Shown here: piece by piece, positions 15,741 through 22,743 of the stretch | Numbering within the stretch: position 1 is the first letter of the stretch | Layout of the letters: each line of letters begins with the position of its first letter | NCBI GenBank assembly: GCA_002783405.1 | Contig: PFGG01000021.1 | Coordinates: 1 to 64,000 of the forward strand | DNA length: 64,000 nucleotides | From: a bacterium (Candidatus Blackallbacteria) CG13_big_fil_rev_8_21_14_2_50_49_14 | GTDB lineage: Bacteria; Cyanobacteriota; Sericytochromatia; UBA7694 | Direction: 5' to 3' | Translations under genes and position numbers: made by a program | Notes under the pieces: generated by a model | What the model was told of the DNA's origin: nothing | Seen by the model: only the letters and a program-made list of their open reading frames with translations | Database searches by the model: none

Positions 15741-15816
15741 GATTTTTAAGGCAGGGCAGAATAGATTTTCACTGAAATCGCAAGGGGTGCTCTGGCAAGC
15801 TTTTGCGATCAAGTTC

Positions 15817-15852
15817 TATACTTGTAATTGAGACAACTCATTTTCTCAGGAG
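15817..15852 (+). promoter_or_regulatory. Candidate -10 and ribosome-binding site for the 15860 gene
   Basis: TATACT at 15817-15822 with a poor -35 (TGGCAA at 15793-15798, 18-nt spacer). AGGAG at 15848-15852 lies 7 nt before a TTG start and decides that start over an upstream in-frame one. Confidence 0.35.
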
Positions 15853-15859
15853 TTTCGCT

Positions 15860-16408
15860 TTGCCTTTTTTAAAACCTACCAGTCAGATTACCTGGATCAA
15901 TCCTCAGGAGAGTCCAAAGCCCTCTAAGGCTTCGACCGCTGAGTCGCATGAACAGATTTTGAAAAAGGCAGATACCTTTATTCAGGGCTCGGTGGCCACC
16001 ACACAGAGAATTGAAGAAGCACTGGCCAATAATTCAGTTGAAACCATGCTGCAGCCGGTGACTTCTCAAACGCTCTTATTAACAGGCACCACCCGCCTAT
16101 TTTGTGCAGGCCACAGTCAGCTTGAAGCCTTGGTCAAAGGTGAAAAAACACTGTCTGAGGCAACCGGGGCGTTTAGTAGTGAAGCGGTCACGAGTCTTTT
16201 GGCAGGTTGTGCGCTGACCTTGGGAAAAGAAACTTCTACTTTGGTACTGGGGCGTTTGGGGCTGCCCGAATCTGCCGTGATGAGCATTGGTCTGTTTGCA
16301 GGCCTGACCTCCGATCAGGCGACCCAATGGATCTTTGAGCGCCAGGGCGCCAAACAGCAGATAGAAACTTCAGTTACAGGTTTTGCTCGGAATATTTTGG
16401 GGCATTAA
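15860..16408 (+). CDS. GEK-motif paralog family protein, short form
   Basis: A 182-residue protein of no family I know. It is a clear paralog of the C-terminal 155 residues of the protein encoded at 19086-20246. Shared landmarks are HEQILKKADTFIQGS near residue 31, the block LEALVKGEKTLSEATGAFSSEA, an Ala/Gly/Leu-rich hydrophobic stretch, and a QWIFERQG to FARNILG ending. The hydrophobic part looks like packed helices, and no signal peptide is seen. The TTG start at 15860 with AGGAG 7 nt upstream is chosen. The next gene starts 5 nt after its stop. Function unknown; its position beside the glycosyltransferase genes suggests a shared process. Confidence 0.7.
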   Translation: MPFLKPTSQITWINPQESPKPSKASTAESHEQILKKADTFIQGSVATTQRIEEALANNSVETMLQPVTSQTLLLTGTTRLFCAGHSQLEALVKGEKTLSEATGAFSSEAVTSLLAGCALTLGKETSTLVLGRLGLPESAVMSIGLFAGLTSDQATQWIFERQGAKQQIETSVTGFARNILGH

Positions 16409-19019: not shown

Positions 19020-19042
19020 GCAAGCTGGCCCTGATCCTTGGG

Positions 19043-19079
19043 TATAATACTTCTAGCTCCTGACACAGAGGTTTATGGA
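19043..19079 (+). promoter_or_regulatory. TATAAT -10 element and leader of the 19086 gene
   Basis: A perfect TATAAT (19043-19048) lies about 38 nt before the start codon; no good -35 is seen. A four-codon open frame (ATG at 19075) ends in a TGA that overlaps the main ATG. The GGA inside it (19077-19079) is the closest ribosome-binding sequence. Confidence 0.45.
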
Positions 19080-19085
19080 TTCTCA

Positions 19086-20246
19086 ATGAAGATTTTTTCA
19101 TCTTCTTCCCAGATTGTACAAATTGAACCGATTGACTTGCCGGGTCAGCTGATCAAAACACCTGCGTTGAATCAGGAGGCACAATTCACCGCAAGCCCTT
19201 CTGAGGCTTTGAAGGAAGTCAGCCCAGGGATTGCCCCCCAGGAAAAATTGGCTCTTTCAGAAGCTGGCAGCTCTGAAAAAGGGGAAGCCAGCCCCAATCT
19301 GCCCTTGGTTGAGAATCCAGTCAAGCCCAATTCTGGTAAAAACCCCCTTCAAGCCATGGTTCAGGGCGAAAAACCTGTGGTCAAGGCCACCACTGAAATA
19401 GTCGGGAATATCGTCAATCAGGTTGTGACAGGCGGTGCTGCGGAGCCTGTTCAGGTACCCGCAGAGGCCGCCGCTGCTGTGGATGCTTCCTTGGATACTC
19501 CTGCTCCCCAGGCTGTTCCCCCTGCCCCGAAACCCGTTCAAGTAGCCCCCGCAGAGCAGACGAAAAAGAAAGCGGCTGAAATGCCTGCAAAACCCGTAGA
19601 AGCGAAGACCTCTCCAGATGCAAAAGCTCCTGACGAGGGAAAACCCTCTGAAGAAGCAAAGAACACAGTACCCGAACAGCCTGCTGCTCCGGTGCATGAA
19701 GAGGTTCTAACACAGAGCGACGCGATCGTAAAAGGAACCCTGCTGACCTTGCAGGCCATCAAAAACAAAAGTCTTGCTGAACCTGAGCCTGTGCCTGTTG
19801 CCCCTCAGCCTCTCTTGAAGGGGATGGCGGTTTCTACGATTGTGCCGATGATATCTTCTGGCAAAGACAATCTTCAGGCCGTGATTTCGGGAGAAAAAAC
19901 CGTGACCCAGGCTGTCGGTGCAGTCACCAGTGATGCGCTGGGAGCTGTGGTGATGAGCACTGCTTCAAATCTGGGGCAAAAACTTGCATCTTCAGCGGCA
20001 ACGGCTATGGGCGCACCCGCAGGTACGGCCGAGGCGGCTGGAATGGTTGCCGCTTTTGCTTCTTCACGTTTGAGTACCCTCGCACTGGAAGGATCAGGAG
20101 CCAAAATTGTGGTGATGGATCAAACCACCAATTGGCTTGAAAAAAATATTATCGGTGGGCAACCCGCTGAAGCCACAAACATAGAGAACCCCACTCCTGA
20201 GCCTGCTGACCTTGCTCCAGAACTTAAGCCGGTAGCGACGGAATAA
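19086..20246 (+). CDS. GEK-motif paralog family protein, long form with duplicated motif
   Basis: A 386-residue protein of unknown function. Residues about 84-117 (GKNPLQAMVQGEKPVVKAT and on) and 258-290 (GKDNLQAVISGEKTVTQAV and on) are two copies of the same motif. Between them is an Ala/Pro/Lys-rich disordered linker (about 118-200). Residues 204-357 align end to end with the 15860-16408 protein. The Ala/Gly-rich C-terminal block may form packed helices. No signal peptide. The ATG at 19086 is used rather than the upstream frame because of its ribosome-binding and -10 context. The 3' end overlaps the convergent kinase gene by 23 bp. Confidence 0.7.
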   Translation: MKIFSSSSQIVQIEPIDLPGQLIKTPALNQEAQFTASPSEALKEVSPGIAPQEKLALSEAGSSEKGEASPNLPLVENPVKPNSGKNPLQAMVQGEKPVVKATTEIVGNIVNQVVTGGAAEPVQVPAEAAAAVDASLDTPAPQAVPPAPKPVQVAPAEQTKKKAAEMPAKPVEAKTSPDAKAPDEGKPSEEAKNTVPEQPAAPVHEEVLTQSDAIVKGTLLTLQAIKNKSLAEPEPVPVAPQPLLKGMAVSTIVPMISSGKDNLQAVISGEKTVTQAVGAVTSDALGAVVMSTASNLGQKLASSAATAMGAPAGTAEAAGMVAAFASSRLSTLALEGSGAKIVVMDQTTNWLEKNIIGGQPAEATNIENPTPEPADLAPELKPVATE

Positions 20247-22743
20247 GGGGTTCCTCAAGGGTGCGTTCCTGGCAGAATTCGATACTGACTTCACGGTTGC
20301 GTGTATTTTGGGCTTGCAGGCAGCGCGCCTGCAAGGGGCCGATTTGATCCTGATCCAGCGTTCGCAAAGCCCCTGAAAAATTAAAACGTACTCCTGCGAA
20401 GATTTTTTCCAGTGCCAGAATCCGGCACTGCAGCGGTTGCTGGGAAAGCTTAATCTGTTCACGTAAAAACTGGACTTCGTCGGTGAGGGTATTGCCCTCC
20501 ACCATCAGGGCCGTGCGTTCAGCTTCGAGTTCTTTCTGGCGCTCTACCTGATCGCGGGCCTGGGTGCGGATATAAATCAAAGCTTTGATATTTTCTTCGA
20601 GTTTGCGTTTATTCAGTTTCAGCTCTTCATCCAGATCACTCAAGCGGGTTTCGACGATGGGATCCACGCCAATATAAAGGGTGGTGGTGGTACTGGAGGG
20701 CGAACCCAGGATGCGGGCCTTGATTAAATGCGCCGAGCTGATTTGCCCCCCGTTGATCTGACCTTTGCCATCATTGATGCCGACCAAAACGGGCCCCATA
20801 CTGCGTACCTGGCTGTGGAGCAGGCCTTCACAGACCCACAAACTGCCCTGGCATTCTACCTGGGCCTGTTGAATAAAATGGGCCCGAATTGTGCCTTTGG
20901 CCTTGAGCTGGGTCTTCTGGTTGCCAAAAACAGAGCCCAGAATCTGGATATTTCCGCCCGCTTCAAGCACTGCATCTTCAACGGAGCCCTGCACCAGAAT
21001 ATCGCCCCCGGCTTCGACCCGATAACCGCTGTGTACATTTCCCCTGACTACCACAGAGCCATCGAAGCAGATATTGCCACTTTTGACCCCGACTTCATCT
21101 AGGTGGATCAGATTTTCAACCCGCACGCTCTGAGCACCCCGGATCGGTTTTCCTGCTTGGGTTGCTACCAGCAGATGTGGGTTTTCGGGGTGAAGAGCTG
21201 TGCCCTTGCCTTCGAGCAGACGTTTTTCAAGCCCTTTGCGGGGCTGGAGCGCTTTTCCGCAGATATCTTTACCGGCTTGGCCTTCAGTGGGAGGATGGTG
21301 AAGCATCAGGGGAGTTCCCTCTGGAACTGAAACGAGCAGATTCAATTCTCTGAAATCTACCGAACCGTCTTCTGATTCTGCAGGGCCCTGATCAATGTCT
21401 GGGATCAGGTATTCCAGCCAGGCATCTTGGCCATGGCAAACAGGTTCTCCCTGGGCTATTTTTTCGCGTTCAAGAAAGCCCTGTTGGGCGGCTTTTTCAA
21501 TCGGCTCCTGAAGCAGGCCAGAGACAATGCCTGTGCGCTCTAAAAATGAATGAATGGCTTCATGAGTGGCGGTTTCGATGGCATAGAGAGGATCCAGACT
21601 CAGCCAGGCTTCGCTCCAATCGGGTTGAACTTCGAGGCTCAGGCCATGGGGCCGGTCACTGAAGAACAAGGGTTTGCGTCCGTTTTCAGAAGCGAGTCCT
21701 TCGGCCTGTAGAACGGTTTCCATTTTGCCCATAAACGGATTGGTTTGGGGGCTGAGATCGGCGAGTGCGCCGCCGATTCGGGTTTCAGAGGTCAAGCGGT
21801 TTCTGACCTGGCCGGTAGGGCGCTTGAGATAGACGCTGGCATCGGGGCGGGGTAGACCAGGGGCCAAGCCCGCACTTTCACCACTTTCAATTTTTTGCAG
21901 CAATTGACGTAAATCGTTGGCCACGTCTGTCATTTGCTGGTAGCGTTCTCCCCGTCGTTTGTGCAGCATGCGCAGGATCAGGGTATTGAGCTCAGGTCTG
22001 AGCTTGGGGTTGTGGCTGAGCGGAGGGGTGGGCTCTTGAGAGAGAATATTCATGATGGTTTTGCCCATGCTTTCGCCTTCAAAGGGCAGCTGGCCGGTAT
22101 AAATCTCGTAAAAGACCACGCCCAGAGAAAAGATGTCTGCGCGGTGATCGACCATGGCTGAATCCTGAAGCTGCTCGGGCGACATATACGAGAGGGTGCC
22201 CAGCATGGTGCCCGCCTGGGTCTGGAGCATGAAGTGTTCGCTGGTATTCATGCGGGCAATGCCAAAATCCATGATTTTGATCTGGTGCTGGGGAGTAATC
22301 AAAATATTATCGGGTTTGATATCGCGGTGTACGACTCCTGCCTGGTGTGCATAGGCCAAGGCCTCACAGCTCTGTATCAAAAGATCGAGTAGGGTGGTTT
22401 CGCTGAAAGCTTCTCCATGGGCGAGAATATCTTTCAGGGTTTGGCCATTGAGCAGTTCCATGACCAGATAATGCCGATCGGCTTCAGCCCCCGCTTCAAT
22501 CACACTGACAATGCCAGGATGTTTGAGCAGGCCGCCGGTATGGGCCTCTCGGCGAAAACGATCGATCATTTCCTGAGCATTTTGATCGGAAGCGTTCAGT
22601 TGCAGTTCTTTGATGGCTACTTCTGTCTTCCGGGCAGGATCCTCGGCCTTATAGACCACCCCCATGCCACCTCGGCCGATTTCTTCTTTCAGCCCGTATT
22701 TACCCAAAACAGTTCGGGTTTGTGTCATCATTGGCTTTCCCAT
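20224..22743 (-). CDS. Ser/Thr protein kinase fused to FapA (DUF342) domain
   Basis: An 839-residue fusion. Residues about 14-285 form a complete PknB-type kinase: glycine loop IGRGGMGVVY, K45 in VAIKELQL, HRDIKPDN with D141, DFG at 159-161 and SPE at 188-190. After a linker, residues about 370-740 match FapA/DUF342, with the GTPLMLHHPP and GKGT region and a repetitive right-handed beta-helix (GNICFDGSVVVRGNVHSG, GGDILVQGSVEDAVLEAGG, KGQINGGQISSAHLIKA). The C-terminal 90 residues are a coiled coil. No membrane helix is seen. FapA proteins are tied to flagellar or polar placement elsewhere. A kinase that phosphorylates or is scaffolded by a polymer-like beta-helix is inferred. The start could be the ATG at 22731 instead. 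Confidence 0.88.
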   Translation of the reverse strand: MGKPMMTQTRTVLGKYGLKEEIGRGGMGVVYKAEDPARKTEVAIKELQLNASDQNAQEMIDRFRREAHTGGLLKHPGIVSVIEAGAEADRHYLVMELLNGQTLKDILAHGEAFSETTLLDLLIQSCEALAYAHQAGVVHRDIKPDNILITPQHQIKIMDFGIARMNTSEHFMLQTQAGTMLGTLSYMSPEQLQDSAMVDHRADIFSLGVVFYEIYTGQLPFEGESMGKTIMNILSQEPTPPLSHNPKLRPELNTLILRMLHKRRGERYQQMTDVANDLRQLLQKIESGESAGLAPGLPRPDASVYLKRPTGQVRNRLTSETRIGGALADLSPQTNPFMGKMETVLQAEGLASENGRKPLFFSDRPHGLSLEVQPDWSEAWLSLDPLYAIETATHEAIHSFLERTGIVSGLLQEPIEKAAQQGFLEREKIAQGEPVCHGQDAWLEYLIPDIDQGPAESEDGSVDFRELNLLVSVPEGTPLMLHHPPTEGQAGKDICGKALQPRKGLEKRLLEGKGTALHPENPHLLVATQAGKPIRGAQSVRVENLIHLDEVGVKSGNICFDGSVVVRGNVHSGYRVEAGGDILVQGSVEDAVLEAGGNIQILGSVFGNQKTQLKAKGTIRAHFIQQAQVECQGSLWVCEGLLHSQVRSMGPVLVGINDGKGQINGGQISSAHLIKARILGSPSSTTTTLYIGVDPIVETRLSDLDEELKLNKRKLEENIKALIYIRTQARDQVERQKELEAERTALMVEGNTLTDEVQFLREQIKLSQQPLQCRILALEKIFAGVRFNFSGALRTLDQDQIGPLQARCLQAQNTRNREVSIEFCQERTLEEPLIPSLPA

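Follow-up and report, generated by a model that had tools for sequence, protein, structure and literature searches.

Does the frame at positions 20224..22743 of the window, the whole 64,000-nucleotide stretch analysed here, encode one protein in which a Ser/Thr kinase is joined to FapA, and what could such a partner do for a kinase? FapA, formerly DUF342, is a flagellar-operon protein that is widely conserved but little studied, and how it acts is poorly understood. In other kinases, on/off switching is the task of NHL, PASTA and PAS modules. Work on Vibrio vulnificus reports that FapA acts in flagellar assembly, that HubP recruits it to the pole and that EIIA-Glc, when dephosphorylated, binds it (PMC6877527, PMC12918733); fapA lies within the flagellar operons of diverse bacteria (PMC11607428). 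No description of DUF342/FapA joined to a kinase was found in the open literature searched; the combination is new, and both component families are already known.

A kinase and a FapA protein in one frame

The gene lies on the minus strand (20224..22743) and forms a single frame of 839 codons with no internal stops. The first ATG of the frame is at 22743, but the ATG at 22728, where both the profile and the orthologues start, is most likely the true start (834 aa). Residue numbers refer to the 839-aa frame, in which residues 290–357 correspond to residues 285–352 of the AlphaFold2 model. Pfam placed three domains along the protein, all encoded on the minus strand: Pkinase (PF00069) at aa 17–269 (21937..22695; E = 2.9e-56, 191.2 bits against a cut-off of 31.7), FapA_N (PF20250) at aa 369–534 (21142..21639; E = 4.7e-36, 124.3 bits against 27), and the FapA beta-solenoid (PF03961) at aa 546–805 (20329..21108; E = 3.3e-59, 201.2 bits against 31), whose Pfam boundaries take in a helical hairpin at aa 695–768 (20440..20661, minus strand). 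The gene product is a single intact protein: a bacterial signalling kinase joined to the flagellum-assembly scaffold FapA. This agrees with the preliminary description, which had read the frame as a kinase with all its catalytic motifs followed by a FapA/DUF342 partner; the solenoid it recognised is present, and FapA_N, which it did not name, is a separate domain.

The catalytic motifs were located as the G-loop GRGGMG (residue 23), VAIK with K45, HRDIKPDN (139), DFG (159) and SPEQ (188), and they are kept across the five fusion orthologues with conservative changes only. Together with the PF00069 score, they place the protein among the PknB-type Ser/Thr kinases, its kinase function being predicted from sequence. 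The nearest solved structures, by sequence and by fold, are Mycobacterium tuberculosis PknB and PknA, and a Foldseek comparison of PknB with the fusion model gave a TMt of 0.86. T175, invariant in the five orthologues, occupies an activation-loop position in the alignment to PknB. Although the fusion resembles PknB/Stk1-type kinases in having a kinase domain with all motifs, it differs from them in lacking a transmembrane segment and PASTA repeats: the Pfam scan found no such repeats, the PASTA-kinase model for Stk1/PknB sensu stricto (NF033483) gave 305.6 bits against an equivalog cut-off of 450, and a 19-residue Kyte-Doolittle scan found no stretch above 1.2 that would mark a membrane helix. 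The cytosolic location suggested earlier fits this profile.

With PF20250 followed by PF03961, both over cut-off, the C-terminal half belongs to the FapA family, and it falls within the FapA tree. Its layout, FapA_N followed by a beta-solenoid with a helical hairpin, is that of FapA from V. vulnificus and Borrelia; relative to stand-alone FapA, the kinase and linker stand in place of about the first 65–90 residues. The beta-solenoid is a fold type common to the MinC C-terminal domain and bactofilins, but the match to bactofilin is not significant (PF04519, 10.9 bits against a cut-off of 27.9), and that to MinC also falls below its threshold (PF03775, 25.2 bits against 33.2). By sequence, the only PDB entry matched by the solenoid was MinC, weakly (E = 1e-4), and these alignments suggest a related fold only.

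The AlphaFold2 model comprises the kinase, a disordered linker and a well-predicted FapA half. The linker (aa 290–357; 21673..21876, minus strand) is predicted to be disordered (pLDDT < 50), and the placing of the kinase relative to FapA is of low confidence (pTM 0.50), which is what structure prediction of the join, proposed in the preliminary description, delivers. Modelled alone, the FapA half reached a mean pLDDT of 86.4 and showed, in order, an N-terminal alpha/beta domain, a strand-rich solenoid, the helical hairpin and C-terminal strands. A PDB fold search with this half returned no match at E ≤ 0.001, and the best 50 matches of the whole model were kinases only. The same description had imagined a polymer-tethered kinase; the bactofilin score, the fold search and the lack of any bactofilin over cut-off in the class, which leaves the fusion no bactofilin partner there, lend this no direct support.

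The source genome is a draft assembly in 84 contigs, and an assembly or annotation error joining two neighbouring genes was considered; no support for it was found. A stop or sequencing error at residues 290–370 was looked for and none was present, and the fusion is continuous in four other, separately assembled genomes. The two same-genus copies differ by a dN of about 0.22 and a dS of about 1.9, a saturated value that makes the dN/dS comparison a rough guide only. Both halves are under purifying selection, with kinase, solenoid and hairpin all constrained; the hairpin is the most strongly conserved part between these two copies (85%). Because the orthologues are full length, the frame has no stop and both halves are under purifying selection, an artefact is excluded, its chance being negligible.

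Distribution and origin of the fusion

The full-length fusion was present in all five sampled genomes of the family, which span four genera of Candidatus Sericytochromatia, at 806–839 aa and 43–72% identity. Conservation is uneven along the chain: the solenoid is 47–79% identical, FapA_N, which diverges faster, 37–61%, and the linker, the least conserved part, 25–59%. Relatives in public genomes come from Candidatus Sericytochromatia / Cyanobacteria MAGs (JADMKE010000004.1, CAJYHH010000535.1, JACYMC010000139.1 and DLGM01000422.1).

Across the class, 5 of 18 genomes carry the fusion, all in one family; most of the other 13 have both FapA genes and PknB-type kinases, but as separate proteins. 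Among 386 genomes of the phylum outside the family, no match spanned both halves. The phyla of three distant FapA matches, about 800 genomes in total, yielded no fusion either: none in 393 genomes for a Spirochaetota match, none in 398 for a Paucibacter match, and none in 14 for an Omnitrophota match, the last survey lacking a positive control. Scoring in the three large surveys was limited to the two top candidates of each genome. Plasmids contained no fusion at 80% coverage. An 853-aa FapA frame in a genome of the class (G001), which by its length resembled a second fusion, proved to have no kinase and to consist of repeated FapA_N-like units plus FapA. Within the genomes sampled, the fusion is conserved and restricted to one family of uncultured non-photosynthetic cyanobacteria.

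Phylogenetic analysis traced the two halves to different relatives. All five FapA halves fall in a single clade (support 90/87) whose sister is the stand-alone FapA1 of the same family (that group 100/99; 39–42% identity to the C-terminal half); FapA2, the HEAT-linked FapA and the FapAs from other families lie elsewhere in the tree. The kinase domains fall among the Pkinase-NHL kinases found class-wide, with weaker support as one group (76/92); their closest non-fused relatives are a Pkinase-NHL protein on another contig of the same genome (C48, 53% identity) and a G001 protein (51%). Unlike these kinases, the fusion ends in FapA and not in an NHL propeller. In a BLAST comparison with a FapA from another genome (G014), the alignment starts at fusion residue 341, which places the joint inside the disordered linker, somewhere from about residue 285 to residue 340.

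The fusion apparently arose once, and its history is most simply explained by a single event in the family's ancestor. The propeller of a duplicated Pkinase-NHL kinase would have been lost, and a FapA1-like gene would have supplied FapA_N-FapA in its stead, without the first 65–90 residues of the donor.

Flagellar context and possible roles of the FapA half

No flagellar gene adjoins the fusion. Its neighbours, named by eye, are a nucleotidyltransferase-like gene, a ClpP-like gene and a convergent gene for an Ala-rich protein; since they are common to the same-genus genome only, the fusion lies outside any conserved operon, and an operon was dropped as a functional clue. The earlier statement that no flagellar gene is nearby thus stands for the stretch examined, but such genes occur elsewhere in the genome. 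One contig (C57) carries a flagellar operon with fliF, fliE, flgC, flgB, a sigma factor, flgI, flgH, flgA, flgG and flhA; Pfam identified flhA, and the other names were given by eye from the sequences. FlhA-type genes are present in all five fusion genomes. The check proposed earlier, for flagellar or bactofilin genes in the genome, was accordingly positive for the former and negative for the latter.

In the source genome and its congener G015, FapA1 and FapA2 are tandem genes. Pfam-confirmed motB, motA, flgE and flgD lie a few kb away, and a gene judged by eye to be FliL-like is also near. The link to motility that had been suspected gains substance here, the FapA half of the fusion being sister to a FapA encoded in this neighbourhood. 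This context was seen within the source genus only; the 15 kb around the FapA1/FapA2 pair of G016 held no flagellar genes. Two elements of the Vibrio system are missing: the source genome has no EIIA-Glc, which removes PTS control of the Vibrio kind, and the five fusion-bearing genomes have no FlhF over cut-off, which removes FlhF-based polarity and leaves the polar role once suggested unsupported. FlhF passed the cut-off in 9 of the 18 class genomes. For these reasons the V. vulnificus mode is not transferable as such.

Because the FapA half is a close sister of a flagellar-adjacent FapA, and FapA has a published flagellar role, we read this half as an address: a cytosolic kinase would be brought to FapA sites and phosphorylate FapA paralogues or flagellar assembly proteins nearby, a reading to which we assign a probability of about 0.45. 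Under this model, a FapA scaffold would have taken the place of the usual C-terminal NHL propeller of a Ser/Thr kinase. Through FapA_N, beta-solenoid and hairpin, the kinase would then be brought to the sites where the stand-alone FapA proteins of the lineage act, which are most probably those of flagellar assembly. The FapA half may also gather kinase domains, favouring activation in trans on the PknB-type activation loop at T175, and the candidate substrates would be those within reach of a flexible linker of about 70 residues. The architecture, the conservation in five of five genomes, the relatives of both halves and the co-presence of flagellar genes support the model; the position of the fusion away from flagellar genes, the confinement of the flagellar FapA1/FapA2 context to one genus, and the lack of EIIA-Glc and FlhF that bars a direct copy of the Vibrio mode, count against it. 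Its single apparent origin and retention in one family suggest that phosphorylation is probably delivered where FapA sits.

The main rival, somewhat unlikely in our estimate, treats the FapA half as an input, with FapA_N binding a signalling partner and switching a kinase whose targets could be unrelated to flagella. FapA occupies the position of the NHL module in the sister kinases, where that module is presumably an input; in V. vulnificus, binding between FapA and EIIA-Glc depends on phosphorylation state; and the faster divergence of FapA_N relative to the solenoid could be that of a module specific to its partner. However, the known FapA ligand, EIIA-Glc, is absent, and a disordered linker of 70 residues suits tethering more than conformational coupling. 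Phosphorylation turned inwards is very improbable: the kinase would modify its own linker or FapA half and so toggle FapA binding or assembly, with no other substrate. Kinase and FapA do share one chain, and region 285–365 contains 12 Ser/Thr residues, but the linker is the part that conservation has touched least.

It is also possible, though unlikely, that the fusion regulates some other structure, such as the envelope, a type III-like export system or cell shape, the FapA-like solenoids of the lineage having spread beyond flagella. The source genome has six FapA genes (the fusion and five others) whose surroundings differ, one of them adjoining the gene for a HEAT-repeat protein; no bactofilin over cut-off occurs in the class; the solenoid is similar in sequence to MinC-C; and the fusion gene lies outside any flagellar cluster. 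Yet the nearest relative of its FapA half is the flagellar-adjacent FapA1 and not one of the other paralogues, and every fusion genome has FlhA-type genes. Returning to the address model, a narrower version is doubtful: lineage-specific control of flagellar assembly in which phosphorylation at FapA sites replaces the Vibrio EIIA-Glc switch, in genomes that have flagellar genes with neither EIIA-Glc nor an FlhF over cut-off.

A FapA-kinase fusion fixed in a family suggests that signalling enzymes can use FapA as an address or as a platform on which to dock. It offers an experimental handle on how FapA acts, and ties eukaryotic-like kinases, unusually numerous here, to a cell structure. Should FapA be just a further accessory module of the kind that bacterial kinases carry, the significance would be modest.

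Related kinase, FapA and FlhA-type genes

The source genome (G000) is unusually kinase-rich, with about 40 Ser/Thr kinase matches, and some of its frames hold two kinase domains (e.g. on C16, C69 and C74). A second full-length FlhA/FHIPEP gene (G000:C55, L113 9977–12148) is flanked by the genes for a response regulator and a 1269-aa protein, and none of the genes around it was recognised as flagellar; two full-length FHIPEP genes are likewise present in each of G015, G016 and G017. At family level, FlhF over cut-off is absent from f1, f2 and f3, of which f1 and f3 have full-length FlhA-type genes.

Several FapA proteins depart from the usual layout. The HEAT-linked paralogue (G000:C65, L104 5331–9871) overlaps end-to-start with the gene for a 989-aa HEAT-repeat protein, likely as a two-gene unit. 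A 597-aa FapA-like protein (G000:C11:88683–89444, L006/L007) matches the solenoid in two separate pieces, and similar split matches occur in G015 and G014. The kinase-free FapA protein of G001 described above (L040 8149–10686; 845 aa from the first start) apparently has, by eye, three FapA_N-like units before the solenoid. Within the window, the Ala/Gly-rich proteins at 15803–16408 and 19038–20246 seem mutually related, because both match one G015 protein in BLAST (L036 8606–9691; 28.7% and 58.6%).
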